A program made the position numbers and the translations under genes. From assembly GCF_028622115.1 (NCBI RefSeq), contig NZ_CP097263.1:3596001-3660000 (forward strand): a stretch of 64,000 nt of DNA, read 5' to 3'. Below the pieces are notes generated by a model. The model did no database searches. It had not been told where the DNA came from and saw nothing but the letters and a program-made list of their open reading frames with translations. Source of the DNA: Kutzneria chonburiensis (GTDB lineage Bacteria > Actinomycetota > Actinomycetes > Mycobacteriales > Pseudonocardiaceae). Positions 50,833 to 64,000 of this stretch are shown one piece after another (the stretch's first letter is position 1; each line of letters begins with the position of its first letter).

Positions 50833-51846
50833 CTACACCCCCGGGGTGGTGGGGGTCTTGGACAGGCCCTTGCCACCGGTGCTCTTGTTGGAGGCGCCGA
50901 TGATGTTCGGCGCCTTCGACGAGGTGCACTGGCTCTGGTCGGTGGCGTTGATGCCGTAGCCGTTCTTGTTGGTCACGGTCAGCGTGTTCTTGCTGAACGT
51001 GTTGCCGCACCCCGTCTTGCCCCACACGTTGTGCAGCTGGATGGTGTCAAGATAGGCGTTCTTGGCGGTGTTGCCGGTGATTGTGTACTTGTCACCCTTG
51101 ATGTCCATTGTGGAATCGGCGTCGTGCTGGTTCTTCTCGCCGGTCCCGTCGAGGGTGTTGCCGGAGATCAGCCCGTCATGGGTGCCCTCCTTGACGTCGA
51201 TGCCCTCGGCGGCCACGTTGGGCCCGATCTTGTTGTTCAGCACCTGGGTGTAGTTGCTGGCGTCGGGCGTGCTGGGGGTGGCGCCGTAGCAGGACCAGTT
51301 GCTGTTGGCCGAACCGAGGTACACGCCCTCGCCGTAGCCGGGCTCCTCCTGGCCGGTGTTGGTCACCGTGGAGTTCTTGATCACGCCGTACGAGCTGCTC
51401 TTGCGGAAGTGCACGCCCTCGTACCCGATGTCGTGCACGCTGACACCGTCGATGGTCACGTGCGACGAGCCGTCGAGCACAATACCCTTCTTGGACTTGG
51501 TCACACTGAAACCCTTGAGGTTCCAGTAGTTCGCGCCCTGCAGCCACAGGCCGTAGCCGGTCTGGCCGGACGGGCAGTCGGTGTCGCCGAGCTTGAACTT
51601 GGGGTCGTGCAGCACGGCTTTGGCGCTGCCGACAAGGGTGATCGGCGCGGCGGCGGTGCCGGACGTGGTGGCGACGAACTGGTCGCCGTAGTCGCCGTCG
51701 GCCAGCTGGATGGTGTCGCCGGGCTTGACCGCCTTCAACGCGGCGATCAGCTGGGCGGCGGTGCTGACGTTGATCGTGGTGGCCGCGGCGGCGGGCTGCA
51801 CGAGTGCCTGAGCCGCGAGCACGGAAGCGAGAATGGCCTTCAACAC
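50833..51846 (-). CDS. Secreted right-handed beta-helix protein
   Basis: The product has 337 residues. A signal peptide (MLKAILASVLAAQALVQP) precedes a pectate-lyase-like parallel beta-helix: ALKAVKPGDTIQLADGDYGD, YGLWLQGANYWNLKGF, GVHFRKSSSYGVI and NGYGINATDQ. GTG 51846 has AAGGAT upstream. It is a close paralogue of the next gene, sharing most of its length and the ending NIIGASNKSTGGKGLSKTP. It could bind or cleave an acidic polysaccharide; the catalytic residues of pectate lyase cannot be assigned. Confidence 0.82.
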   Translation of the reverse strand: MLKAILASVLAAQALVQPAAAATTINVSTAAQLIAALKAVKPGDTIQLADGDYGDQFVATTSGTAAAPITLVGSAKAVLHDPKFKLGDTDCPSGQTGYGLWLQGANYWNLKGFSVTKSKKGIVLDGSSHVTIDGVSVHDIGYEGVHFRKSSSYGVIKNSTVTNTGQEEPGYGEGVYLGSANSNWSCYGATPSTPDASNYTQVLNNKIGPNVAAEGIDVKEGTHDGLISGNTLDGTGEKNQHDADSTMDIKGDKYTITGNTAKNAYLDTIQLHNVWGKTGCGNTFSKNTLTVTNKNGYGINATDQSQCTSSKAPNIIGASNKSTGGKGLSKTPTTPGV

Positions 51847-51926
51847 AGGGAAATCCTTTCGGCAGGGAAGCCGAGGGGGTCGGCCCGCACAGCGGCTGAT
51901 ATGCGGGACGGCCCCCTCGCCGCTAC

Positions 51927-52937
51927 TCAGGCGCCGGGCGTGACCGGGGTCTTGGACAGCCCCTTGCCGCCGGTGCTCTTGTTGGACGCGCCGATGATGT
52001 TGGGCGACTTCGACGACACGCACGAACTCTGGTTCGTGGAGTTGATGCCGTAGCCGTCCTTGTTGGTCACGGTCAGCGTGTTGTTGCTGAACGTGTTGCC
52101 ACAGCCCGTCTTCTTCCACAGGTTGTGCGTCTGGATGGCGTCGAGGAAGGCGTTTTTCACCGTGTTGTTGGTGAACTTGTAGCCGTCACCCTTGACGTCG
52201 ATCGCCGAGTCGGCCGAGTTCTCGTTCTTCTCGCCGGTCCCGTCGAACGTGTTGCCGTCGACAACGCCGCCCTTGGTGCCCTCCTTGACGTCGAGGCCCT
52301 CGGCCGCGACGTTGGGCCCGATCTTGTTGCCCAGCACCTGGACGAAGTCGCCGGCGTCCGGGTTCTTGCCCTTGTTCGTGCCGTAGCACGCCCAGTTGCT
52401 GTTGGACGAACCGATGTAGACACCTTCGCCGTAGCCGGGCTGCTCGAGACCGGTGTTGTACACGCTCGAGTTCTTGATCACACCGTAGGCGCTGCTCTTG
52501 CGGAAGTGCACGCCCTCGAAGCCGATGTCGTGCACGGAGACCGAGTCGATGGTCACGTGGGTGGCACCGTCGAGGACGATGCCCTTCTTCGACTTGGTCA
52601 CGCTGAAACCCTTGAGGTTCCAGTAACTCGCGCCGTTGAGCCACAGGCCGTAGCCGGTCAGCCCTGACGGGCAGTCGGTGTCGCTGGCCTCGAACTTCGG
52701 GTCGTGCAGCACCGCCTTGGCACTGCCGACAAGGGTGATCGGCGCGGACGCCGTGCCGGAGGTGGTGGCCACGAACTGGTCGCCGTAGTCACCGTCGGCC
52801 AGCTGGATGGTGTCGCCGGGCTTGGCCGCCTTCAGTGCGGCGATCAGCTGGGCCGCGGTGCTGACGTTGATGGTCGATGCCGCCGGCTGCACGACGAACG
52901 GCGCGACCAGCGCGAGAGCGGTCAGGGCTTTGATCAT
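51927..52937 (-). CDS. Secreted right-handed beta-helix protein, paralogue
   Basis: The 336-residue protein has a signal peptide (MIKALTALALVAPFVVQP) and the same beta-helix as the gene at 50833. The ATG at 52937 overlaps the upstream TGA (ATGA), so translation is coupled to the pectate-lyase-superfamily gene. The two beta-helix genes are a tandem duplication. Confidence 0.82.
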   Translation of the reverse strand: MIKALTALALVAPFVVQPAASTINVSTAAQLIAALKAAKPGDTIQLADGDYGDQFVATTSGTASAPITLVGSAKAVLHDPKFEASDTDCPSGLTGYGLWLNGASYWNLKGFSVTKSKKGIVLDGATHVTIDSVSVHDIGFEGVHFRKSSAYGVIKNSSVYNTGLEQPGYGEGVYIGSSNSNWACYGTNKGKNPDAGDFVQVLGNKIGPNVAAEGLDVKEGTKGGVVDGNTFDGTGEKNENSADSAIDVKGDGYKFTNNTVKNAFLDAIQTHNLWKKTGCGNTFSNNTLTVTNKDGYGINSTNQSSCVSSKSPNIIGASNKSTGGKGLSKTPVTPGA

Positions 52938-54859
52938 TTCGCCACCGTCTTCAGGAAGAGCGACGGACCCTTGTCGGTCTTCGTGTCGTCGACACCGTGA
53001 CCTCCTGTGTAGTCCTGCTGCTCGTTGTGAGCCCAGTCCACAATGGGCTGTCCGCCGACATCCAGGTGGTGGAACGCCTTGCCGTCCCAGCCGAACTGGT
53101 AGATCTTGCTGTGGTCGGGGTAGTACGGCGTGTACGCGGCGCCGTCGGTGACCTGCTTGGTCATCGTGTTGTTGAAGAAGACGTTGCGCGGACCCGAGGA
53201 ACCCGACCACTTGACCGCCTTCTGGCCGGTCGACCAGTAGATCGGGAACCACGTCGAGTCGTCCGGCCCGGAGCCGCCCTCGTCACCGCAGTGCGCGGTG
53301 CAGTTGCCGGAGCGGTGCGCGTAGGACACCTTGTTCGTGTTGTTCTCGAACAGGTTGTTGCGCTCGTAGCCGCCGTGGATGTTGAAGTCCGAGTCGATGT
53401 CGTTGCCGATCACCACGTTGCCCGACGCGGACCACTGGAAGGTGAAGTGGCGCAGGTCGCGGGTGGTGTTGCCGGCGTAGAGCGAGTCCCACACGCGGGA
53501 GCCGCGGAAGTAGCCGTTGCCGCCCTTGCCCTTGTTCCACGAGCCGTCCAACTCGTTGTTGACGATCTGGAGGTTCTTGGCCTCCTCGGTCACGATCGGG
53601 TGCGAGCCGGTCATGATCGCGTGGATGCCGGTCACCCAGTCGTTGGCCGCCCACTTGAACACGATGCCCTGCATGGCCAGCTGCGGCGCCAGGTTGCCGT
53701 AGTTGTCCTTGGCCTGCGCCTGGGTCACGCCGGGCGGGGCCACCTGGGTGTAGGAGAAGTTCTCGAAGCCGACACCGACGATCGGGTCGACGATCGGCGA
53801 GGCCTTGGACGCGTACACGGTGCCGTCGATGGGGGCCGAACCGTCCGAAGTGGAGTCGACCGGCACGTCGTACTCGAGCGGCTTGTCGATGGACACCGTG
53901 TGGTTCTTGGTGTCGATCGCGGTGATGGTGAACCACTGCTGCCGCATGTGCAGGTTCTCCAGCGGCCACGTGGTCGGGTAGGCGTTCATCGACTTGTAGA
54001 AGTTGATCGAGTTGGCCGCCCGGATGTTGATGAAGCCGCCGACCTTCATGTTGGTGGTCTTGGCGCTGGTGTCCAGGTACACCACCTTGTCGCCGGTGCG
54101 GGCGGCGTAGCCCTTGTCGTTGGGCTTGGCCCGCAGCTTGGCGCCGGCCTTCCAGTGCACGTTGATCGTGCCCTCGAACTCGTCCTTGCGGTTGGCCGGG
54201 GCCGACTTGTACTCGCTGGCGTAGCTGGGGTCGACCTGGCGGGACTGCACCCGGAACAGGCCGCGGCCCGGCCACAGCCAGCCGCCGCTGGCGTCGTCGA
54301 AGCCCATGTTGCCCTGGTCCCACTGGTCGCCGTCCGGCGTCAGCACGTCGTACTGGGTGTTCTTGTCCGGCGCGTAGACGAACTTCGTCTGGTCGGTGCC
54401 GGCGCCGCGCAGGATCAGGTAGTTGGCGTCGACGTGGATCTCGTGCGTGACGTCCAGCTGCCCGGCCGGGAAGGTGAGCAGGCTGAGCTTGTTGTAACTG
54501 CCCGTGGGCGAGCAGTTCTTGTGCAGGTAGTCGATCGCGGCCTGGATGCCGTTGGTGTCGTCGACCTTGTCGTCCGGCTTCACCTTGTACGTGCTGGCCA
54601 GCTGGGCCGGCGTGATCTGGCACTTCTTGTCGGGGTTGACGTCACCCGAGCCGGGCAGGTTCTGGCCGCCGCGGAAGCCGGCCTTGCTCCAGTCGTACAG
54701 GCCGGCCACCGGCGCCCGCCGGTTGGCCGCGGACGTGTCCAGATTGGTCAGTGCCGCACTGTCCTTCGGCGCGCCGGTGGCGACCGAGGAGGACAGCGCC
54801 AGCCCGCCGGCCACGCACAGGGTGGCCGTCACGAGCGCGACGACCCGCTTTCGCTTCAC
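52934..54859 (-). CDS. Secreted pectate-lyase-superfamily protein
   Basis: The 641-residue protein has a signal peptide (MKRKRVVALVTATLCVAGGL). The body, with DDTNGIQAAIDYLHKNC, ILRGAGTDQTKFVY and NLFENNTNKVSYAHRSGNC, is a large beta-helix of the pectate lyase 3 / glycoside hydrolase 55-like type. The GTG start has GGAGGA upstream. It is the second of four secreted proteins on this strand and overlaps the next gene by four bases. It probably acts on plant or fungal polysaccharide. Confidence 0.82.
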   Translation of the reverse strand: MKRKRVVALVTATLCVAGGLALSSSVATGAPKDSAALTNLDTSAANRRAPVAGLYDWSKAGFRGGQNLPGSGDVNPDKKCQITPAQLASTYKVKPDDKVDDTNGIQAAIDYLHKNCSPTGSYNKLSLLTFPAGQLDVTHEIHVDANYLILRGAGTDQTKFVYAPDKNTQYDVLTPDGDQWDQGNMGFDDASGGWLWPGRGLFRVQSRQVDPSYASEYKSAPANRKDEFEGTINVHWKAGAKLRAKPNDKGYAARTGDKVVYLDTSAKTTNMKVGGFINIRAANSINFYKSMNAYPTTWPLENLHMRQQWFTITAIDTKNHTVSIDKPLEYDVPVDSTSDGSAPIDGTVYASKASPIVDPIVGVGFENFSYTQVAPPGVTQAQAKDNYGNLAPQLAMQGIVFKWAANDWVTGIHAIMTGSHPIVTEEAKNLQIVNNELDGSWNKGKGGNGYFRGSRVWDSLYAGNTTRDLRHFTFQWSASGNVVIGNDIDSDFNIHGGYERNNLFENNTNKVSYAHRSGNCTAHCGDEGGSGPDDSTWFPIYWSTGQKAVKWSGSSGPRNVFFNNTMTKQVTDGAAYTPYYPDHSKIYQFGWDGKAFHHLDVGGQPIVDWAHNEQQDYTGGHGVDDTKTDKGPSLFLKTVAK

Positions 54860-55014
54860 GAGGATTCCTCCGGGATGCTTCGAGTACAACGGTGAACGGC
54901 AGTGTGTGGCGGCGACGGACGCCCCAGTCCGCCGCCGGCCCCACAGGCGAACCCTGACTCGCCTGGGGACCGGCGACGTCCCGCCCCTGCCTGGGCTTGT
55001 TGGCCTGAAAGAGA

Positions 55015-55938
55015 TCAGGCCGCGGGGAAGGTCCATTGCGCCGCCGAGCCGGAACAACTGCCCGCGGTCACCGCGGTCTTCGTCGCGCGGAAGCACTTCT
55101 TGCCGGTCTGGATGTCCGAGATGGTGCCGCTCGGGTTGGCCGACCACTGCTGTGTCGGGCCGCCGGTGCACTTCTTGAGCGCGATGTCGCCGCCCTTGGA
55201 GTCGGCGCACAGGTTGCGGATGCTCAGGAAGGTGCCGTCGAACGTGAAGTTCTGGTTGACCGTGCCGTCACAGGCCTTCACGCCGATCTTGGTGGCACTG
55301 GCCGGCGCGTCGAGGCACACCGCCGAGGCGGGGTTCTTGTACGGGCCGACCGTGATCGTCGGCTTCGCGCCGCCGTAGCACTCGCCGGTGCTCGTGTTGA
55401 AGATCGGGTCCTTGCTGACCTTCTGGTTGGCGTCCGGGTCGACGATCACCGGCTCCATGGTCGGCGTGTTGTCCTTGTTGTAGTGCGTGAGCGCGACCTC
55501 GCACTGGATGGCCTTGAACGGGTCGCCGCCCTTGCCGCCCAGCCAGAGGTCGAAGTGGGCCAGCTTGGGTCCGCCGTTGGGGCCCTTGCCGTTCCAGTCC
55601 GAATTGCACTCGTCGCAGTCGTCCTCCATGATGAAGTACTTGCCCACCCGCGGCACGTAGATCTTGCCGCCGGGCTTCACCTCCTTGGTGGACGTGGCGA
55701 AGGTGATCGGGTCGTCGAAGGTGCCGACGCCGCCGGCGGTCTTGTGCTTGACCGGGTGCGAGATGTCGCCACCGGGCGGCGTGTTGTCCCACCAACCGTA
55801 AAAAGTCAGGAAGGTCTGCTGGGACGCGTGCGGCGCGGCGGCCGACGCCGGCACAACTCCGGTGAGCACCATGGCGATGACGGCGAACGCCGCGAGCACA
55901 CCGGACGTCAGGACGGGGACGATCGCTCGTCTCCTCAT
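55015..55938 (-). CDS. Secreted protein with ricin-type lectin domain
   Basis: The product has 307 residues. The signal peptide runs to about residue 34. The first domain (TFYGWWDNTPPGGDISHP, VPRVGKYFIMEDDCDECNSDW) looks like a small beta-barrel of unknown function. The second is a beta-trefoil lectin with CLDAPASATKIG, LKKCTGGPTQQWSANP and QWTFPAA. ATG 55938 has GGAGG upstream. A TTAGGAA-type dyad lies about 80 bases before the start, so this gene may share control with the sulfur locus. Confidence 0.75.
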   Translation of the reverse strand: MRRRAIVPVLTSGVLAAFAVIAMVLTGVVPASAAAPHASQQTFLTFYGWWDNTPPGGDISHPVKHKTAGGVGTFDDPITFATSTKEVKPGGKIYVPRVGKYFIMEDDCDECNSDWNGKGPNGGPKLAHFDLWLGGKGGDPFKAIQCEVALTHYNKDNTPTMEPVIVDPDANQKVSKDPIFNTSTGECYGGAKPTITVGPYKNPASAVCLDAPASATKIGVKACDGTVNQNFTFDGTFLSIRNLCADSKGGDIALKKCTGGPTQQWSANPSGTISDIQTGKKCFRATKTAVTAGSCSGSAAQWTFPAA

Positions 55939-56018
55939 GGTTGCCTCCGTAGCTGACTGGCAGGGCGCCAGGACTCCGAAGGCGGCGGTGACACGAAGCT
56001 TACGACCCGTCACCCCAT

Positions 56019-56113: not shown

Positions 56114-56980
56114 CTATGGACGTTTGCGGGCCAAACCGTGTGCTCGCAGCACATGCCGCTCCACCGGGGCGAACACCAGCTGGTTCACGCCGATGCCCAC
56201 CACGAGCACCAGCGCAATGGTGCCGAAGGCCAGCGCCATGTCGTTGGTGTCCTGGGCTTGTTTCAGCAACTGTCCGAGTCCGTGGCCCAGCGAGGCCGAG
56301 GTGGCGATGATCTCGGCGGCCATCAGCGAGCGCCAGGCGAAGGCCCAGCCCTGCTTCAATCCGGCGACATAGCCGGGCAGCGCCGCCGGCAGCAGCACGT
56401 GCACCACCGCAGAAAAGCCTTTCGCACCGAGGTTCCGACCCACCTTGAGGTACAGCGGCGGCACCTGGTCCAGCCCCGACACCAGGCCGTTGGCGATGGA
56501 CGGCACCGCGCCGAGCAGGATCACCGTGTAGATGGTGGCCGGCGTGACTCCGAAGAAGATGACCGCGGGCGGCACCCACGCCACCGACGGCAGGTTCTGC
56601 AGGCCGGACAGGATCGGCCCGACCGCGGTCCGCACCGGCTGACTTCGCCCGACCACGACGCCGAGCGGCGTGCCGATCAGCACCGACACGAGAAAACCCA
56701 GCGCGCCACGGGAAAGGCTGTTGCCGATGCTGGACCACACCTCGCCCCGGCCGGCCGCGGTGGCCAGCGAGTGCCATACCTCGCCCGGACCCGGCAACAC
56801 CCAGTCGGGTTGCACGCCGGCCAGATACAGGCCCTGCCAGCCCAGCAGCACCACCGCGATAGCGACCAGCGGCGGCAGCAGGAGTTGACGAAGTCTTCGC
56901 CGCGGCGCGGCCCGCGCGCCGGACAGCAGGTCGAGGCCCGCCTCCAGCCGGGCCAGTCCGTTCGGCTCAGGTCTGGCCAT
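56114..56980 (-). CDS. ssuC: ABC transporter permease, sulfonate/nitrate/taurine type
   Basis: This 288-residue inner-membrane protein has about six hydrophobic segments and the loop characteristic of SsuC/TauC permeases (SLMAAEIIATSASLGHGLGQLL, the EAA region). It pairs with the ATPase and binding protein upstream to import sulfonates or sulfate esters. The ATG at 56980 overlaps the ATPase stop by 14 bases, giving coupling. It is the last gene of the sulfur operon. The substrate is not proven; SsuC, TauC and related permeases look alike. Confidence 0.85.
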   Translation of the reverse strand: MARPEPNGLARLEAGLDLLSGARAAPRRRLRQLLLPPLVAIAVVLLGWQGLYLAGVQPDWVLPGPGEVWHSLATAAGRGEVWSSIGNSLSRGALGFLVSVLIGTPLGVVVGRSQPVRTAVGPILSGLQNLPSVAWVPPAVIFFGVTPATIYTVILLGAVPSIANGLVSGLDQVPPLYLKVGRNLGAKGFSAVVHVLLPAALPGYVAGLKQGWAFAWRSLMAAEIIATSASLGHGLGQLLKQAQDTNDMALAFGTIALVLVVGIGVNQLVFAPVERHVLRAHGLARKRP

Positions 56981-57731
56981 GTCTGCTGATCTCCTCCCGC
57001 AGATGCTCGGTGATCTCCACGGACAGCCGCGCCACCGCCGGATCCTCGATCCGCCGGGGATGCGGGATGTCCACCGTCCACTCCCGCGCGATCCGGCCCG
57101 GCAGCGAGGACAGCAGCACCACACGTTGAGCCAGCCGCACCGCCTCACGCACGTTGTGCGTGACGAACACCGTGCTGAAGCCGGCGGTCTGCCACAGCCG
57201 CACCAGCTCCTCGTGCAGCACGTCCCGGGTGATCGCGTCCAGCGCGGCGAACGGCTCGTCCATCAGCAGCACTTCGCTGCCCTGGGCCAGGGCCCGGGCC
57301 AGCGCCACCCGCTGCCGCATGCCGCCGGACAGCTCGTGGGCCCGTTTGTTTCGGGCTTGTTCCAGACGCACCAAGGACAACAACCGCCGGGCCTCGGCCT
57401 GCCGCTCCTTGCGTGGCACTCCCCGCAGGCGCAGCGCCAGCTCCACGTTGCGAGCGGCCGTCAGCCACGGGAACAGCGCCGACTCCTGGAACATCAGCGC
57501 CGCATGGCCGCCGGCCAGCTCGACGTGGCCGGCGGTGGGCGTGTCCAGACCGGCGATCAGGTTGAGCAGCGTCGACTTGCCGCAGCCGGAAGCGCCCAGC
57601 AGACAGACGAATTCGCCGGACCGGACCTCGAGTGAGATGTCCTCCAGCACCGGCGGCCCGGTGTCGAAGGACTTGCCCACGCCGTGCAGGGCGACGGCCG
57701 TACGGGTCGATCTCGGGGCTACGACGGTCAT
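56967..57731 (-). CDS. ssuB: ABC transporter ATP-binding protein, sulfonate/nitrate type
   Basis: The 254-residue ATPase has Walker A LLGASGCGKSTLLNL, signature LSGGMRQRVALARALA, Walker B EVLLMDEPFAALD and the switch THNVREAVRLA. The whole matches the SsuB/TauB/NrtD group. The start overlaps the binding-protein stop by four bases. It provides energy for uptake with the genes on either side. Confidence 0.9.
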   Translation of the reverse strand: MTVVAPRSTRTAVALHGVGKSFDTGPPVLEDISLEVRSGEFVCLLGASGCGKSTLLNLIAGLDTPTAGHVELAGGHAALMFQESALFPWLTAARNVELALRLRGVPRKERQAEARRLLSLVRLEQARNKRAHELSGGMRQRVALARALAQGSEVLLMDEPFAALDAITRDVLHEELVRLWQTAGFSTVFVTHNVREAVRLAQRVVLLSSLPGRIAREWTVDIPHPRRIEDPAVARLSVEITEHLREEISRHGQT

Positions 57732-58753
57732 TGCCTGTCCCCCAAGCCGGCGTCGTCGACCTTGACCTTGCCCGCGGCCTCGAGCTCCGCGTTCAACGGC
57801 CCGACGTCCACGATGCCGCGCAGGTCGGTCGCCGACATCAGCCCGACGCTCACCGCGTGGTCGGCCTGCACGCCGACGGTCGAGGCCAGCGGGTCCTCGG
57901 TGACCTGCTGCTCGTCCCAGGCGCGGGAGATCTCCGGCTCGGTCAGCGCCGCCCCGGTCAGCCGCCGCAACTCGGTGTTCACGGTTTTCGCGGCCTGGGC
58001 GGAATTCCCGGCAATCCAGTCGTTGGTGGCCAGTTCTCCGGCGATCAGCCGCCGCACGGTGTCCGGATGCTCGCGCAGGAATTTGGTCGACACCACCAGG
58101 TCCGTGCTGGCGAAGTGGCCGCCCGGCCACAGGTCGTTCTCGTCCACCAACACCGTCGCCCGCGCCTCGATGACCAGCCGCGATGCCCACGGCTCGGGCA
58201 GCCAGGCGCCGTCGATCTTGCCGGCGCGGAACTGGTCGAGGGTGGTGGCGTTGTCCTGCGGGCGAACCGCGACGTCACCGCCGCCGTCGGGCGTGGTCTT
58301 CATGCCGTGCTGACTGAGCCAGTAGCGCAGGGCGACGTCCTGCGTGTTGCCGAGCTGGGGCGTGGCAAGCGTTTTCCCACGCAGCTGCGCCGGCGTGTCG
58401 ATGCCCGCGCGGACAACCAGCTCGGCGCCGCCCATGGTCGCACCGGCCACGATCTTCAGGGCCTGACCGTGACTGCGGACATACCCGTTCAGCGCCGAGG
58501 ACGGGCCGACGTAGGCCGCGTCGAGCTGGCCGCCGAGCAGCGCCGTCATCTCTGCCGGCCCGGCGTTGAACACCTGCGTGGTGAGACGGGTGTCCCCCAG
58601 CGACTTCTGGAAGAACCCGTTGGCCACGCCGACCATCGCGGTGGCATGGGTGAGATTGCCCAGGTATCCCAGCCGCAGTTGATCGTCGGGAGCGGCGGCG
58701 GCGCAGCCGGCCAGCAGCAGTCCGACGGCCGCGACCGGTAAGAACCCCTTCAT
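57728..58753 (-). CDS. ssuA: ABC transporter substrate-binding lipoprotein, SsuA/TauA type
   Basis: The 341-residue protein has a lipobox (LLAGC) close to the N-terminus, so it is a lipoprotein on the outer face of the membrane. The body is an NMT1/SsuA-like two-lobe binding fold (LRLGYLGNLTHATAMVGVA, AYVGPSSALNGY, AWLPEPWASRLV). The ATG at 58753 overlaps the cysN stop (ATGA). The ligand is probably a sulfonate or sulfate, judging from its place in a cys operon. Confidence 0.85.
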   Translation of the reverse strand: MKGFLPVAAVGLLLAGCAAAAPDDQLRLGYLGNLTHATAMVGVANGFFQKSLGDTRLTTQVFNAGPAEMTALLGGQLDAAYVGPSSALNGYVRSHGQALKIVAGATMGGAELVVRAGIDTPAQLRGKTLATPQLGNTQDVALRYWLSQHGMKTTPDGGGDVAVRPQDNATTLDQFRAGKIDGAWLPEPWASRLVIEARATVLVDENDLWPGGHFASTDLVVSTKFLREHPDTVRRLIAGELATNDWIAGNSAQAAKTVNTELRRLTGAALTEPEISRAWDEQQVTEDPLASTVGVQADHAVSVGLMSATDLRGIVDVGPLNAELEAAGKVKVDDAGLGDRQ

Positions 58754-60012
58754 GGCCACCACGGCGGCACGCCCACCATTCCGGCCGTCAGCGTGTCGCC
58801 GCCGGCCTCGTCGATGAGCAGGACGGCGCCGCAGTGCCGGTTGAACTCGTAGGTGTCGACCGCGAGCGGCTCGCCCGTTCGCAGCGACACCAGTGCGATC
58901 TCGTTGGTGTACAAGGTGTCCATCGGGTTGTCGACGGTCAGGTCGTGCACGTCCAGCCGCTCCTCGACCGCTTCGACGAACGCCCGCACGGTACGGGTGG
59001 TATGCCGCACCAGCACCCGGTCCCCCACCCTCAGCGGCCGCGAAGCCAGCTGGCAGGCGACAACCGTGAGCCGGTCGGTCGGCTCCGGCATCGTCGACAC
59101 CGGAGTGATCAGGTCACCACGGGCCACATCCACGGCATCGGCCAGCCGTACCAGCACGGACTGCGGCGCGAAGGCCTCGTCCACCGCCGTGCCGCCGATC
59201 TCGATGCCGGCGATCCGGGTGCGGTGCCCGGCCGGGGACACGACCACCGGGTCACCCACTCGGAGCAGGCCGGAAGCCAGTTGTCCGGCGTAGCCACGAA
59301 AATCGGTCGCACGGATGACGTACTGCACCGGTAGTCGAGTCGCCTCCGGTTCACCCACGGTCGGCACGGACTCCAGGTGCTCCAACAGCGTCGGCCCGGC
59401 GTACCAGGGCATGTGCGAGCTCGGCGTCACCACGTTGTCCCCGCACAACGCGGACATCGGGATCGCGACGATGTCCGGCACGCCCAGTTTGCCGGCGTAG
59501 TCGCTGAACTCGGCGGCGATCGAGGCGAAGATCCGCTCGTCGTAGTCGACCAGGTCCATCTTGTTCACCGCCAACGCCACGTGCGGAACCCGCAGCAGCG
59601 CGGACACCACGGTGTGCCGGCCGGTCTGCTCGACGAAGCCGTGCCGGGCGTCGACCAGGATCACCGCCAGCTCGGCGGTCGAGGCGCCGGTGACCATGTT
59701 CCTGGTGTACTGCACGTGTCCCGGCGTGTCGGCCAGGATGAACCGCCGCTTGGCCGTGGCGAAGTAGCGGTAGGCGACGTCGATGGTGATGCCCTGTTCC
59801 CGTTCCGCGCGCAGGCCGTCGGTCAGCAGGGCCAGGTCGGCCTCGGCCAGTCCCCGGCCGAGCGAGGCCCGACGCACGGCCTCCAGCTGATCGGGCATGA
59901 CCGCGCTGGTGTCGTGCAGCAGCCGTCCGACCAGTGTGGACTTGCCGTCGTCGACACTGCCGGCGGTGGCCAGCCGGAGCAGGTCGCCGGCGGGAAGCTC
60001 GGTGGTGGTCAT
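58750..60012 (-). CDS. cysN: Sulfate adenylyltransferase GTPase subunit
   Basis: The 420-residue GTPase drives ATP sulfurylase. Its G1 loop is GSVDDGKSTLVGRLL, G3 is DTPGH, G4 is NKMD, and a C-terminal EF-Tu-like pair of barrels follows. There is no fused APS kinase (CysC) domain, which agrees with APS being reduced directly by the adjacent CysH. The start overlaps the cysD end. Confidence 0.95.
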   Translation of the reverse strand: MTTTELPAGDLLRLATAGSVDDGKSTLVGRLLHDTSAVMPDQLEAVRRASLGRGLAEADLALLTDGLRAEREQGITIDVAYRYFATAKRRFILADTPGHVQYTRNMVTGASTAELAVILVDARHGFVEQTGRHTVVSALLRVPHVALAVNKMDLVDYDERIFASIAAEFSDYAGKLGVPDIVAIPMSALCGDNVVTPSSHMPWYAGPTLLEHLESVPTVGEPEATRLPVQYVIRATDFRGYAGQLASGLLRVGDPVVVSPAGHRTRIAGIEIGGTAVDEAFAPQSVLVRLADAVDVARGDLITPVSTMPEPTDRLTVVACQLASRPLRVGDRVLVRHTTRTVRAFVEAVEERLDVHDLTVDNPMDTLYTNEIALVSLRTGEPLAVDTYEFNRHCGAVLLIDEAGGDTLTAGMVGVPPWWP

Positions 60013-60929
60013 CAGAAGTAGCCCTCCCGCTTGCGGTCCTCCATGGCGGCCTCGGACATCCGGTCGTCGGCGCGGCTGGAACCCCGTTCCGTGACACGGG
60101 ACGCGGCGATCTCGGCGATCACCTCGTCCACAGAGGACGCCGGCGAGTCGACGGCGCCGGTGCAGGACATGTCGCCGACGGTGCGGTACCGCACCATCCG
60201 GTCCTGCACCGGCTCCCCGTCACCGGGCCCGCCCCACGACCCCGGCGCGAGCCACATGCCGTCGCGGAGAAAGACGGTGCGCCGGTGGGTGAAGTAGATC
60301 TCCGGCAACTCGATGCCCTCGGCCCGGATGTAGCCCCATACGTCCAGCTCGGTCCAGTTGGACAAGGGAAAGACGCGCATGTGTTCGCCCGGCCGGTGTC
60401 GCCCGTTGTACAGCCGCCACAGCTCCGGCCGCTGCCGGCGCGGGTCCCACTGGCCGAAGTCGTCCCGCAGCGAGAAAACCCGTTCCTTGGCCCGGGCCTT
60501 CTCCTCGTCGCGGCGGCCGCCGCCGAGCACGGCGTCGAACCGGTTGGCCTCGATGGCCCGCAACAGCGGCAGGGTCTGCAGTGGATTGCGGGTCCCGTCG
60601 GGACGTTCCCTCAGCTCGCCGGCGTCGATGTAGGACTGGACATCGGCGACCAGAAGCCGCACGCGGAAGCGGGCCACCGTGCGGTCGCGGAACTCCAGTG
60701 TCTCCGGGAAATTGTGCCCGGTGTCCACATGTAACAGCGGAAACGGGATCGGCGCCGGGGCGAAGGCCTTGCGGGCCAGGTGCAGCATCACCGTCGAGTC
60801 CTTGCCGCCGGAGAACAGCAGCGCCGGGCGCTCGAACTCGGCCGCCACCTCGCGCAGGATGTGCACCGACTCGGCCTCGAGGGTGTCGAGGTGGGAGAGG
60901 ATGTGTCGTGCTCGGGTCGTCGCCCTCAC
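60012..60929 (-). CDS. cysD: Sulfate adenylyltransferase subunit 2
   Basis: With CysN it makes adenosine 5'-phosphosulfate from sulfate and ATP. The 305-residue PP-loop enzyme has LFSGGKDSTVMLHLARKAF, GGGRRDEEKARAKER and RTVFLRDG. The GTG start at 60929 follows a small hairpin (60930-60947) whose loop carries GGGG, possibly masking the RBS. Confidence 0.95.
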   Translation of the reverse strand: MRATTRARHILSHLDTLEAESVHILREVAAEFERPALLFSGGKDSTVMLHLARKAFAPAPIPFPLLHVDTGHNFPETLEFRDRTVARFRVRLLVADVQSYIDAGELRERPDGTRNPLQTLPLLRAIEANRFDAVLGGGRRDEEKARAKERVFSLRDDFGQWDPRRQRPELWRLYNGRHRPGEHMRVFPLSNWTELDVWGYIRAEGIELPEIYFTHRRTVFLRDGMWLAPGSWGGPGDGEPVQDRMVRYRTVGDMSCTGAVDSPASSVDEVIAEIAASRVTERGSSRADDRMSEAAMEDRKREGYF

Positions 60930-60947
60930 ACCGAAACCCCTTTCGGT
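60930..60947. promoter_or_regulatory. Hairpin before cysD start
   Basis: On the minus strand ACCGAAA-GGGG-TTTCGGT is a perfect stem of seven base pairs, placed directly before the cysD GTG. The loop holds the best RBS candidate, so it may tune translation within the operon. Confidence 0.4.
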
Positions 60948-60978
60948 CGCGGCGGGCGGCGGTTCCGCCGGATTGTGG

Positions 60979-61680
60979 TCACGTGCTGTGCAGGCCGCAC
61001 TCGGTCTTGGCCCGGCCGGCCCACCGGCCGCTGCGCGCGTCGGCGCCGGCCGCCACCCGCGTGGTGCACGGGCGGCAGCCGACCGACAGATAGCCGTCCG
61101 ACAGCAGCGGATTGAGCAGAACCCCGTGCCGCACAGCGTATTCCGCCATGTCGTTCGCGGTCCACGCGGCGATCGGGTTGATCTTGATCAGGCCGCGGCG
61201 GTCGTCCCAGCCGACCACCGGCGTGTCCGCCCTGGTCGGCGACTCGTCCCGGCGCATGCCGGTGACCCACGCGTCGTAGTGCCGCAGTGCCCCGTCCAGC
61301 GGGGCGACTTTGCGCAGGGCACAGCACTTGTCCGGATCGCGGGTGTACAGTCGCGGGCCGTACCACCGGTCCTGCTCGGCCACGGTCTGCTCGGGGACGA
61401 CCGTGACCAGCGTGATCGGGTAGGTCGCGGCCACCGCGTCCCGGGTCCCGATGGTCTCCGGGAAGTGGTAGCCGGTGTCGAGAAAGAGCACGTGCACACC
61501 GGGAGCGTGCCGCGCGGCCAGGTCGACCAGCACGGTGTCGGCCATCGACGAGGCGACGGCGAGCCGGTCGCCGAAGGTCCGGCCGGCCCAGCCGAGTACT
61601 TCCGCGGCGGTGGCGTCGTGCAGTTCTGCGGCGGCTCGGTCGGCGATGCGCCGGAGTTCGGCGCGCGGGCGAGCGTCCAT
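60979..61680 (-). CDS. cysH: Adenylyl-sulfate (APS) reductase
   Basis: The 233-residue enzyme reduces APS to sulfite. The Cys pair at 119-120 (DKCCALRKV), C202 and C205 (GCRPC) are the [4Fe-4S] ligands that mark APS-type rather than PAPS-type CysH. The catalytic Cys is in ECGLH (C228). The ATG has GGAGG upstream. The next genes on the operon are cysD and cysN. No sulfite reductase gene is present in the window, so the sulfite could go to the divergent SQD1-like enzyme. Confidence 0.94.
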   Translation of the reverse strand: MDARPRAELRRIADRAAAELHDATAAEVLGWAGRTFGDRLAVASSMADTVLVDLAARHAPGVHVLFLDTGYHFPETIGTRDAVAATYPITLVTVVPEQTVAEQDRWYGPRLYTRDPDKCCALRKVAPLDGALRHYDAWVTGMRRDESPTRADTPVVGWDDRRGLIKINPIAAWTANDMAEYAVRHGVLLNPLLSDGYLSVGCRPCTTRVAAGADARSGRWAGRAKTECGLHST

Positions 61681-61712
61681 GGCGGGCCCTCCTCCATGGG
61701 AGTGACCAATTT

Positions 61713-61731
61713 GTTAGGAAACTTTCCTTAC
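61713..61731. promoter_or_regulatory. TTAGGAA-type operator, copy b, at the cysH promoter
   Basis: GTTAGGAAACTTTCCTTAC is a near-perfect dyad, just downstream of the predicted cysH transcription start, a typical repressor position. Confidence 0.65.
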
Positions 61732-61741
61732 TGTGGGCCGG

Positions 61742-61771
61742 AGCGTAGGCCCGGCCCGCGCTGGCCGTCAA
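61742..61771 (-). promoter_or_regulatory. cysH operon promoter
   Basis: On the minus strand TTGACG (61771-61766) and TACGCT (61747-61742) are 18 bases apart. Transcription would begin near 61735, just before the dyad at 61713-61731. Confidence 0.5.
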
Positions 61772-61914
61772 CCCCCGCCATTAGGGTGACCCGTCGCGGC
61801 GACATGTCGCAGGTCAGAGACTGAAATCGTTTCCAGGCAACGGCTTCGCGGCCGGCCTGCGGCCGTCCGGTCGGCTTGACGGGATCCACGTATGCGAATA
61901 GTGTCCGTGACCGA

Positions 61915-61937
61915 GTTAAGAAAGTTTCCTATATAAC
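61915..61937. promoter_or_regulatory. TTAGGAA-type operator, copy c, at the SQD1-like promoter
   Basis: TTAAGAA-AGT-TTCCTAT (61916-61932) resembles copy b inverted at its centre. It overlaps a -10-like TATATA (61931-61936). Common control with cysH is likely. Confidence 0.5.
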
Positions 61938-62053
61938 TCGCTCCGGCCGGCGGACCCTGACGCTCTCTCGCCGACGTCCTCCACCGTCCGCGCGGCCCCC
62001 TGCCACCGCCGCGCCATGACGGACCCTGTACGGAACTCGAGGGGTGCATCTCG

Positions 62054-63280
62054 ATGCGTGTACTTGTTCTGGGCGGAGACGGCTTCTGCGGTTGGCCGAC
62101 GGCCCTTCACCTGTCCGACAACGGCCATGACGTCACCATTCTCGACAACCTGAGCCGGCGGGCCATCGACCTGGAACTCGAGGTCGACTCGCTGACCCCG
62201 ATCCGCCCGCTGGGCGAGCGGTTACGGGTGTGGCGCCAGCTTTCCGGGCGGGACATCGGTTTCATCCGCCTCGACCTCGCCACGGAATACGACCGCCTGG
62301 TGTCCGTGTTGACGAGACTCCGGCCGGATGCCGTGGTGCACTTCGCCGAACAGCGGGCCGCGCCGTACTCGATGCGGTCCACCGGGGCCAAGCGCTACAC
62401 CGTCGACAACAACGTGCGGGCGACGCACAACCTGCTGACCGCGCTGGTCACGACCGGCGGCGAGACCGCGCTGGTGCACCTGGGGACCATGGGCGTGTAC
62501 GGCTACGGCTGGTCCGGCTCGGCCCCGATCCCCGAGGGCTACCTCACCGTCAAGGTGCCGACCCCCGACGGCGACCTCGACCGCGAGATCCTGCACCCGG
62601 CCAACCCGGGCTCGGTCTACCACCTGACGAAGACGTTGGACCAGCTCATGTTCGCCTTCTACGCGAACAACGACGGGCTGCGCGTGACCGACCTGCACCA
62701 GGGCATCGTGTGGGGCACGCAGACGCCGCAGACCGCCCGTGACGAGCGGCTGGTCAACCGCTTCGACTACGACGGCGACTACGGCACCGTGTTGAACCGG
62801 TTCCTGATGCAGGCGGCCATCGGCCACCCGCTGACCGTGCACGGCACCGGCGGGCAGACCCGTGCGTTCATCCACCTCCGGGACACCGTGCGGTGTATAG
62901 AGATCGCGCTGAACAACCCGCCCGAGCCCGGGGCCAAGCCGACGGTGTTCAACCAGATCACCGAGACGCACCGGGTCCGCGACCTGGCCGACCTGGTCAG
63001 CGCCATGACCGGGGTCGAGGTGGCCAACCTGCCCAATCCGCGGCAGGAAGCGGTGGAGAACGACCTGGTCGTGCGCAACGACCGGTTCCTCGCGCTCGGC
63101 CTCAAGCCGACGACCCTGTCCGAGGGTTTGCTGGAGGAGTGCACGGACATCGCGGTCCGGTACGCCGACCGTGTCGACCCGTCGAAGATCGTCTGCCGGT
63201 CGGTGTGGCGCGAGGGCATGGCCGTCGCACCCGATCTGCTGACCGAACTTCCGGTGCGGCAGCCGGTGGCGGTCGACTGA
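62054..63280 (+). CDS. sqd1: UDP-sulfoquinovose synthase, SQD1/SqdB type
   Basis: The enzyme converts UDP-glucose and sulfite to UDP-sulfoquinovose, using bound NAD+. The 408-residue protein has the NAD loop LVLGGDGFCGWPTALHLS, VVHFAEQRAAPYSM, VDNNVRATHNLL, HLGTMGVYGY with Thr145, and YHLTK with Tyr189 and Lys193 (catalytic Thr/Tyr/Lys). LHQGIVWGTQTPQT, FDYDGDYGTVLNRFLMQAA and TVHGTGGQTRAFIH are strongly conserved in the family. The ATG has GAGGGG upstream. The neighbouring cysH operon can supply sulfite. It overlaps the HlyD-like gene by one base (TGATG). Confidence 0.93.
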   Translation: MRVLVLGGDGFCGWPTALHLSDNGHDVTILDNLSRRAIDLELEVDSLTPIRPLGERLRVWRQLSGRDIGFIRLDLATEYDRLVSVLTRLRPDAVVHFAEQRAAPYSMRSTGAKRYTVDNNVRATHNLLTALVTTGGETALVHLGTMGVYGYGWSGSAPIPEGYLTVKVPTPDGDLDREILHPANPGSVYHLTKTLDQLMFAFYANNDGLRVTDLHQGIVWGTQTPQTARDERLVNRFDYDGDYGTVLNRFLMQAAIGHPLTVHGTGGQTRAFIHLRDTVRCIEIALNNPPEPGAKPTVFNQITETHRVRDLADLVSAMTGVEVANLPNPRQEAVENDLVVRNDRFLALGLKPTTLSEGLLEECTDIAVRYADRVDPSKIVCRSVWREGMAVAPDLLTELPVRQPVAVD

Positions 63281-64000
63281 TGGCCCGCGGCCAGGCCCGG
63301 GTCCGCGGCATGAACGCGGCGGCCGACCTCTCCCCTTTGGTGCGCAAGGAGTTCCCGCACTCGTCGGTCCGGCAGCTGTTGGTCGCGGTGGCCATTCTGT
63401 CCGGGGGCTCGGTCCTGGCGTACTTCACCTACACCGATGTCTCGGCCCGCAGCAGCTTCGTCGGCGCGGTGCAGCCCGAGCAGTCGCTCAACCTGGACTT
63501 CACCCAGACCGGCCGGATCCAGGACGTCATGGTGCGGGCCGGTGAACACGTCAAGAAGGGCCAGCCGCTGGCCACCCAGGACCAGGCCGTGGCCAAGGCC
63601 ACGCTGGCCGACGCCAAGGCGGTTCTCGTTGCGGCACAGGCGAAGCTGGCCGCTTTGCAGTCGCCGGCGTTGACCGACACGGCCAAGCAGAACCTGGACC
63701 TCCAGGTGGCCAAGGCGAACGCACAGCTGGCCGGCGCGCAGAAGGCGTCGGGCGACGCGGCCGTGACGGCGAATGCCGAAGTGGCCCAGGCACAACAGGC
63801 CGTCACGGACGCACAGTCCACATACGACAGTGACAACAGCCAGTACAACTCGGTGTGCGCCACCAACGCGGACGCGGACAAGACATACTGCGCGAATCTC
63901 CAGGCGCAGGTGCGCAAGGACGCGTCGGCCATCAGCACGGCCAACGCGAACCTGACCCACACCAAGGCATCCACGGCCCAGCTGCGGGACACGGCCCTGA
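63280..64000 (+). CDS. HlyD/RND-type membrane fusion protein, N-terminal part
   Basis: The frame is open to the right edge; 240 residues are visible. A membrane segment lies at about 34-52 (LLVAVAILSGGSVLAYFTY). A biotinyl-lipoyl half-domain follows (GRIQDVMVRAGEHVKKGQPLATQD), then a long Ala- and Gln-rich coiled coil. This is the adaptor layout of ABC or RND exporters. The ATG overlaps the SQD1-like stop, so the two are coupled. The product may help export a sulfoquinovose-bearing molecule; the transporter lies beyond the window. Confidence 0.85.
   Translation, partial: MARGQARVRGMNAAADLSPLVRKEFPHSSVRQLLVAVAILSGGSVLAYFTYTDVSARSSFVGAVQPEQSLNLDFTQTGRIQDVMVRAGEHVKKGQPLATQDQAVAKATLADAKAVLVAAQAKLAALQSPALTDTAKQNLDLQVAKANAQLAGAQKASGDAAVTANAEVAQAQQAVTDAQSTYDSDNSQYNSVCATNADADKTYCANLQAQVRKDASAISTANANLTHTKASTAQLRDTAL

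Follow-up and report, generated by a model that had tools for sequence, protein, structure and literature searches.

A putative sulfate-to-sulfoquinovose module joined to a processive glycosyltransferase in Kutzneria chonburiensis

The window analysed here is a 64,000-nucleotide stretch of the soil actinomycete Kutzneria chonburiensis (C1:3596001-3660000, on contig NZ_CP097263.1), lying in a single-contig genome of 10.41 Mb. Its last 8 kb contain a minus-strand operon for sulfate activation and reduction (cysH-cysD-cysN, followed by SsuABC-like transporter genes) that is divergent from a plus-strand gene of the SQD1 family, here called sqdB. The original prediction, made from the letters of the window alone, had proposed a dedicated route from sulfate to an exported sulfonated product; the cysH, cysD and cysN genes and the divergent SQD1-type gene on which it was built are all in place. 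Open reading frames 3′ of the window were read on in an overlapping stretch, L002, whose positions equal window positions minus 58999.

The cys operon begins with cysH (60979..61680, minus strand), encoding a reductase of the adenosine 5′-phosphosulfate (APS) type with the CC...CxxC arrangement (PF01507, 7.5e-45; structure 7lhr, 2.4e-81). A motif search finds CC, CxxC and ECGLH, and the protein aligns over its cysteines with the APS reductase structure 2goy, as expected from the earlier claim that it carries the Fe-S cysteines of such an enzyme; its score against TIGR02055 (220.5 bits) falls narrowly under the cut-off of 235.3. The ATP sulfurylase is encoded by cysD (small subunit; 60012..60929, minus strand; TIGR02039, 447 bits, above cut-off) and cysN (GTPase subunit, without a fused APS kinase; 58750..60012, minus strand; TIGR02034, 503 bits, above cut-off). 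Next come genes on the same strand for an SsuA-like sulfonate/sulfate binding protein (57728..58762; NMT1_2, 2.6e-34; TIGR01728, 162.1 bits for a cut-off of 163.5), an SsuB/TauB-like ABC ATPase (56967..57680; ABC_tran, 1.2e-32; 5′ start unsettled, with the frame open to 58190) and, at the operon end, an SsuC/TauC-like ABC permease (56114..57148; BPD_transp_1, 8.5e-18; 5′ start likewise unsettled). The last two genes keep their places in the corresponding modules of four other Kutzneria genomes and of Kitasatospora.

On the plus strand, sqdB (62054..63280) is followed by a gene for an HlyD-like membrane fusion protein of 442 aa (63280..64608, cut at the window end; L002 4281-5609; HlyD_D23 34.4 and HlyD_3 31.9 bits, both above cut-offs), a gene for a processive glycosyltransferase of family 2 (GT2; 656 aa; L002 5606-7576; Glyco_tranf_2_3, 8.2e-21), a gene for a glycanase-like protein of family PF10091 with a signal-like start (496 aa; L002 7573-9063; 2.4e-14) and a DUF6924 gene of uncertain operon membership (L002 9081-9572; PF21962, 2.4e-35). 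The predicted one-base overlap of sqdB with the HlyD-like gene is there, with the ATG starting on the last base of the TGA stop; the HlyD-like and GT2 genes overlap by 4 bp, as do the GT2 and PF10091 genes, so the first four genes very likely form one transcript. An Rfam scan of 55-64 kb gave no match, and the cysH/sqdB intergenic region yielded no sigma-70-like site in promoter scans; by eye, TTGACG-N17-TAGTGT can be read before sqdB.

The reading of the downstream protein as an HlyD-like exporter adaptor holds for the family and is less likely for the exporter, since a processive GT2 gene follows and no ABC exporter gene does; this arrangement favours a polysaccharide synthase over export of a natural product. 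Of the genes that had been sought past position 64000, a glycosyltransferase lies directly downstream; no assembly-line gene was recognised by eye among the downstream open reading frames of L002, and the natural-product version of the proposal was dropped.

By fold family and fingerprint, the sqdB product is a predicted SQD1-family UDP-sulfoquinovose synthase. Residues 2-387 of its 408 align with the structure of Arabidopsis SQD1 (1qrr, E 6e-97), and the fingerprint [ST]MG xn YxxxK, given for SQD1 and Agl3 in PMC8987622, is present as TMGVYG...YHLTK. Residues His95, Arg101, Met145 and Glu147 of Agl3 (PMC4388408), of which the His and the Arg were found important there, were compared. The first three have counterparts in SqdB, in HFAEQR and TMGVYG, as matched by eye; Glu147 is replaced by Val, as it is in 110 of 125 aligned rows (some from one genus), including Sinorhizobium and Prochlorococcus, so that Glu147 is not diagnostic for this branch. 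SqdB scores 312 bits on NCBIfam NF041015, under the curated cut-off of 575, and nine other proteins that were scanned also fall below it: eight at 305-344 bits (two from cyanobacterial records) and one, L032, at 473. This last protein, which reads TMGEYG and is closer to the cut-off than the SqdB branch, belongs to a second SQD1-like subfamily (L032-L045), 46-51% identical to the window SqdB, which 29 of the 397 genomes searched in the order contain.

Three relatives from alpha-proteobacterial plasmid records were inspected; their SqdB proteins are 64-68% identical to that of the window, and a GT8-type gene follows each, as in sqdBDC. In Rhodobacter sphaeroides, sqdB is required for sulfoquinovosyldiacylglycerol (SQDG; PMC11346425). 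One record labelled as a plasmid, L005 (CP090106.1; S. meliloti Ak57, "pSymB"), spans 3.7 Mb and carries ftsH, ruvAB and tol-pal; it looks like a mislabelled chromosome. The closest named-genome relative among the matches listed is that of Kutzneria sp. 744 (96% SqdB identity). The gene is not especially rare in actinomycetes of this kind: an SqdB match of at least 61% occurs in 17 of the 397 genomes of the order (its own included; one match partial).

A genome-wide search for a sulfite reductase gene (sir) and a second cys locus, as had been suggested, revealed two further loci for sulfate activation. PF01507 has five matches in the genome: a cysH-cysD pair in the window, another such pair at 9.51 Mb, and a lone cysD at 3.07 Mb. 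The 9.51 Mb locus reads sir-cysH-cysD-cysN, with an NIR_SIR frame directly upstream of cysH that we label sir from its position, and has the same cysHDN-ssuABC order as the window copy; NIR_SIR matches lie at 9.513 Mb (two, in one frame) and at 8.485 Mb (88 bits). The only APS kinase match (PF01583) is fused to cysN at 3.075 Mb. In whole-genome searches with the NIR_SIR and APS kinase profiles, neither sir nor cysC fell in the complete window module; their absence, noted earlier for the part inside the window, thus extends past its end. The 3.07 Mb locus (L196, C1:3069000-3080000) consists of cysD-cysNC, with a sulfotransferase-like frame (L196 428-1855) recognised by eye about 2.4 kb away, and appears from its genes to be a module for 3′-phosphoadenosine 5′-phosphosulfate (PAPS) apart from the other two loci. 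Since sir is found at one locus, cysC at another and neither at the window, the three copies have three likely fates: sulfide (9.51 Mb), PAPS (3.07 Mb) and, at the window, sulfite without an adjoining reductase.

In the 373-bp cysH/sqdB intergenic region, the palindrome TWAGGAAASTTTCCTWA occurs twice, so that each operon is preceded by a copy. The first, 33 bp upstream of cysH (61714..61730), matches TTAGGAAACTTTCCTTA exactly; the second, upstream of sqdB (61916..61932), is weaker, with 2 mismatches. They are the only matches at up to 2 mismatches in the 64 kb, where 0 are expected. All five Kutzneria modules have a cysH-side copy that agrees with the pattern; the sqdB-side copy is aligned in all five and varies, with further changes in some. 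Genome-wide, 22 places match when 2 mismatches are allowed, whereas the reversed pattern has 0, and the neighbours of 17 of the 20 other places were scanned, with genes chosen by a rule on third-codon-position GC content (GC3). Glycoside hydrolases (GHs) are prominent there: GH75, a chitosanase by Pfam name, at three places, GH9 at two, and GH46, also a chitosanase family, GH8 and GH2 at one each. Other neighbours are metallophosphatases (two places), a ROK regulator, an amino-acid permease, a PGA_cap protein, an AAA_16 protein and an F5/8-ricin protein (one each), and genes without a Pfam match (two). The ROK regulator gene adjoins the site at 6.155 Mb. The palindrome is probably of the type bound by the ROK repressor CsnR of Streptomyces. 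No copy was found at up to 3 mismatches in the sir locus stretch. A candidate ROK-type repressor that would also govern chitosanases probably switches both operons together.

Two further features lie near the cys operon or these sites. A ricin-B-lectin protein is encoded at 55015-56013 of the window, and its block TFLTFYGWWDNTPPGGDI recurs in the reading frame that lies at an operator site in L233; L228 has a similar block. By eye, positions 50833-55210, adjoining the operon, hold two similar tandem secreted frames with a parallel beta-helix look and a third, larger secreted frame.

The module is conserved as a unit in most genomes of the genus examined. A second cysH, 84-92% like that of the window, occurs in four of the six other Kutzneria genomes, and the whole module lies in its flanks in all four (L046, L189, L190 and L191). 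The DUF6924 gene is present in four of the five Kutzneria modules, that of the window included, and was not seen in L191. In the draft genome of Kutzneria sp. 744 (L046 12551-14539) the GT2 gene is broken between two frames; it is intact in the other four.

Beyond the genus, a scan of named genomes confirmed at least 587 SqdB relatives, of which the best 80 were kept and their flanks fetched. Five of these 80 loci have cysH or cysD in the fetched flank: Kutzneria sp. 744, Kitasatospora MAP5-34, Catenulispora rubra, an Actinomycetota bin (L089) and a Nocardioidaceae bin (L114). By a rough density from four genomes, 0.42 would be expected (P 8e-5). This figure was derived after the fact, and one of the five loci is itself from Kutzneria. 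Clusters are also denser in small genomes: with bin G401, which has 2 clusters in 2.8 Mb, as the measure, hand arithmetic gives about 1. Cys genes beside sqdB in other families thus add comparative support to the dedicated sulfate-to-sulfoquinovose route. In Kitasatospora, the cys operon continues after ssuC with the GT2 gene and a gene whose product is probably secreted, and sqdB-HlyD is divergent; GT2, cys and sqdB therefore stay together despite rearrangement. A further CysH, next to sir, is present both in Kitasatospora and in the Nocardioidaceae bin. In Kitasatospora the CysH linked to sqdB has CC...CxxC, and the sir-linked segment (L140, L192 locus) lacks it by regular expression; possibly PAPS- and APS-type reductases occur in one cell.

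The sqdB, GT2 and HlyD genes stand together in seven loci: five of Kutzneria, that of Kitasatospora and that of an Acidimicrobiaceae bin. The fetched stretch of Catenulispora ends after sqdB-HlyD. A second flavour, sqdB-BcsB-like-GT2, is found on a plasmid of Rhodococcus qingshengii, in two genomes of the same order (G289 and G254) and in G672, and in Tropicibacter a GT2 gene and a BcsB-like frame adjoin sqdB on the opposite strand.

Gene trees, from which matches covering less than 75% of the query were left out and rows L147, L148 and L013 (CysH), L140 (CysD) and L131, L143 and L002 (CysN) had been dropped as fragments or duplicates, place the Kutzneria module copies of CysD and CysN in strong clades (99/100 and 100/100); for CysH, where a long branch intrudes, they form no firm clade (68/19). 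The Kitasatospora CysH linked to sqdB groups with the one that Catenulispora has on its sir contig (100/99). The starred branches require two or more changes each for CysH and CysN and only one for CysD, and one origin is therefore still possible for CysD. The idea that cys and sqdB had moved as one block was dropped, as the sqdB-linked cys genes are not one clade.

The GT2 of this module has the motifs of processive synthases (D, DxD, (T/G)ED, QxxRW) as CDDGS, DTDCE, GEDID and QRRRW; DxD, GED and QxxRW are common to all ten aligned GT2 proteins. Named synthase models (PgaC, MftF, CelA and NodC) are far under their cut-offs (best 98 of 422 bits), and no PilZ domain was found among the Pfam matches of the GT2 and HlyD-like proteins. 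Profiles built from 10 GT2 seeds and 7 HlyD seeds were run on 98 loci: the GT2 profile gave at least 564 bits in 11 loci and next 64 bits, and the HlyD profile matched 8 loci and nothing else; all strong matches but one each are seeds, the point being the score gap. A search with GT2 alone over 394 genomes of the class (E up to 1e-60) returned its own genome and G672 (1.4e-70), that is, one of 393 others; in G672 the gene belongs to sqdB-BcsB-like-GT2, and a SulP-type gene lies 1.7 kb further along. Among plasmid records, a search with the Rhodococcus GT2 (E up to 1e-30) recovered only that protein, and the Kutzneria GT2 matched six records over about one third of its length.

A predicted extracytoplasmic partner (HlyD_D23/HlyD_3) and a predicted glycanase (PF10091), both above cut-offs, are encoded with the GT2. 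The PF10091 protein matches the structures 8wy1 (3.9e-14) and 8rf9 (1.5e-13); an AlphaFold model from five close sequences had a mean predicted local distance difference test score of 32 and was not used. The glycanase-like gene varies by lineage: it is of family PF10091 in Kutzneria, whereas Kitasatospora and the Acidimicrobiaceae bin have a family without a name. Members of this probably secreted family adjoin GT2/HlyD in L047 (Kitasatospora; 765-1679) and L090 (8103-9029 and 9145-10071), and their invariant YDxExW and YADV motifs suggest an enzyme. The two members from the L090 bin matched no Pfam family above cut-off, the Kitasatospora member had no match in the PDB, and a search over the 394 class genomes, run without a positive control, returned nothing.

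These features suggest, at somewhat better than even confidence, that sulfite made on site feeds UDP-sulfoquinovose into an exported, synthase-made polysaccharide. The two divergent operons would act as one module. The SsuABC-like transporter would import sulfate or a sulfonate, CysDN would make APS, and CysH would reduce it to sulfite, which, with no adjoining sir gene, could be channelled to SqdB and combined with UDP-glucose to give UDP-sulfoquinovose. The membrane GT2 may then polymerise or co-polymerise the sulfosugar and thread the chain through the membrane; outside it, the HlyD-like protein would be the partner of the GT2, and the PF10091 protein, once secreted, would trim or release the chain; the step from GT2 to polymer is drawn from the parts list. 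Of the original proposal, the dedicated route is strengthened by the paralogous cysHDN without sir or cysC, the conserved unit within the genus, the shared palindrome and the downstream glycosyltransferase, and the likely type of exporter is revised.

Several observations weigh against this interpretation. The donor and product of the GT2 are not readable from its sequence. The glycanase assignment leans on PF10091, and the match of the protein to the solved endo-beta-1,2-glucanase 5gzh (GH144) is weak (E 0.22); in the second flavour, the match behind the name BcsB falls short of the Pfam cut-off (19 of 21 bits). These weak matches led us to lower our confidence slightly. In G672, SqdB reads TTG for TMG, which by the Agl3 data counts against enzyme function. 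Within the genus, G407 has only a sir-type cysH and G406 (4.7 Mb) has none. The Catenulispora module has cysD-cysN beside sqdB and no cysH; the CysH of L089, the sole one found in that 1.2 Mb genome, lacks CC...CxxC; and the palindrome is absent at up to 3 mismatches from the Kitasatospora locus. Gene trees separate the module cys copies of Kitasatospora and Catenulispora from those of Kutzneria. Finally, 73 of the best 80 sqdB loci have neither cysH/cysD nor a strong GT2/HlyD match, many of these loci being short and ending at contig ends.

The main rival is a sulfonated glycolipid resembling SQDG, for which SqdB would feed an SqdX-like glycosyltransferase of family 4 (GT4) elsewhere in the genome, the GT2-HlyD pair being an unrelated envelope system that is merely co-transcribed. 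The GT8-type neighbours of the alpha-proteobacterial relatives and the need for sqdB in R. sphaeroides are in keeping with it, and an SqdX-like GT4 pair at 6.80 Mb (206 bits, 34%, and 92 bits) speaks for it and against a polymer. The query is presumed to be SqdX from its position after sqdB in Prochlorococcus; its matches are weak in Kitasatospora (72 bits) and the Acidimicrobiaceae bin (52 bits). GT8_Sm, GT8_Ma and SqdC_Ma had no match in the Kutzneria modules, SqdD not having been searched genome-wide. The overlap of sqdB with the HlyD gene and of that gene with GT2 is harder to reconcile with a lipid, as is the finding that the one GT2 relative recovered independently of sqdB, in G672, also adjoins sqdB; we regard the glycolipid as unlikely.

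The GT2 might instead be a capping or decorating enzyme that transfers sulfoquinovose one unit at a time to a lipid or to a polymer of the wall. Not all GT2 enzymes with QxxRW-like motifs are polymerases, and the low scores on the nearest named models (PgaC, MftF, CelA and NodC) fit this view; against it, the HlyD-like or (under cut-off) BcsB-like partner and the glycanase-like protein make up the parts list of synthase-dependent polymers such as alginate and cellulose, and we find it improbable. That the cys operon is a plain duplicate of assimilatory sulfate reduction, set beside sqdB by chance, would agree with the gene order it shares with the housekeeping copy and with cys trees that show no single origin across families. 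Such a duplicate accounts poorly for the lack of sir, the conserved neighbourhood, palindromes that precede both operons and are missing from the sir locus stretch, or the excess of cys-linked sqdB loci over the 0.42, or about 1, expected; we consider it very improbable.

The polysaccharide interpretation may be carried further. The operator shared with chitosanase-family genes might point to a use against or on chitosan, and in Kutzneria the private cysHDN, UDP-sulfoquinovose and GT2 could yield an exported sulfonated polymer (a sulfoquinovosan or a sulfoquinovose-rich heteropolysaccharide) within a chitosan regulon, binding or neutralising chitosan; in this full form the proposal is tentative and, in our judgement, rather unlikely. 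As a guess, a polyanionic sulfonate polymer set against polycationic chitosan might serve to grip fungal walls or to protect from chitosan. Sulfoquinovose is known as a lipid head group and as a sugar of archaeal N-glycans; if bacteria do have a pathway dedicated to a sulfonated polysaccharide, the product would be a polymer class not described before and would add to the sources of a sulfosugar that other microbes eat. The genome also appears to divide sulfate activation three ways, among reduction, sulfation and sulfonation, and so offers a case in which the partitioning of toxic sulfite within metabolism can be tested.

No description of a cys-sqdB-GT2 module or of a bacterial sulfoquinovose exopolysaccharide pathway was found among the matches listed in the open-licence literature. 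The window protein shares with SqdB/SQD1 of SQDG synthesis (Rhodobacter sqdBDC and plants) and with Sulfolobus Agl3 the fold family, the TMG...YxxxK fingerprint and, by family, sulfite as substrate; surface glycoproteins of S. acidocaldarius carry sulfoquinovose (PMC9549778). Unlike the SQDG systems, the window operon has no SqdD, SqdC or SqdX and is joined to cysHDN and a GT2-HlyD pair, and unlike Agl3 its SqdB has Val in place of Glu147. The cysH-cysD-cysN order recurs in fpr2-cysIXHDNYZ of C. glutamicum, and the 9.51 Mb locus likewise has an ABC transporter; the window module differs from such sulfate assimilation clusters in lacking sir, in its adjoining sqdB operon and in its regulatory site. 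The palindrome GGAAAGTTTCC lies here next to GH46/GH75 and ROK genes, probably as does the CsnR chitosanase operator of Streptomyces, and in addition flanks cysH and sqdB. Synthase-dependent exopolysaccharide systems (alginate, Alg8/Alg44; cellulose, BcsA/BcsB; mixed-linkage glucan, BgsA/BgsB) resemble the module in their processive GT2, HlyD- or BcsB-like partner and glycanase-like protein; the Kutzneria module differs from them in its actinobacterial host, in having no PilZ match, and in combining genes for a predicted sulfonated donor with genes for the sulfite to make it.

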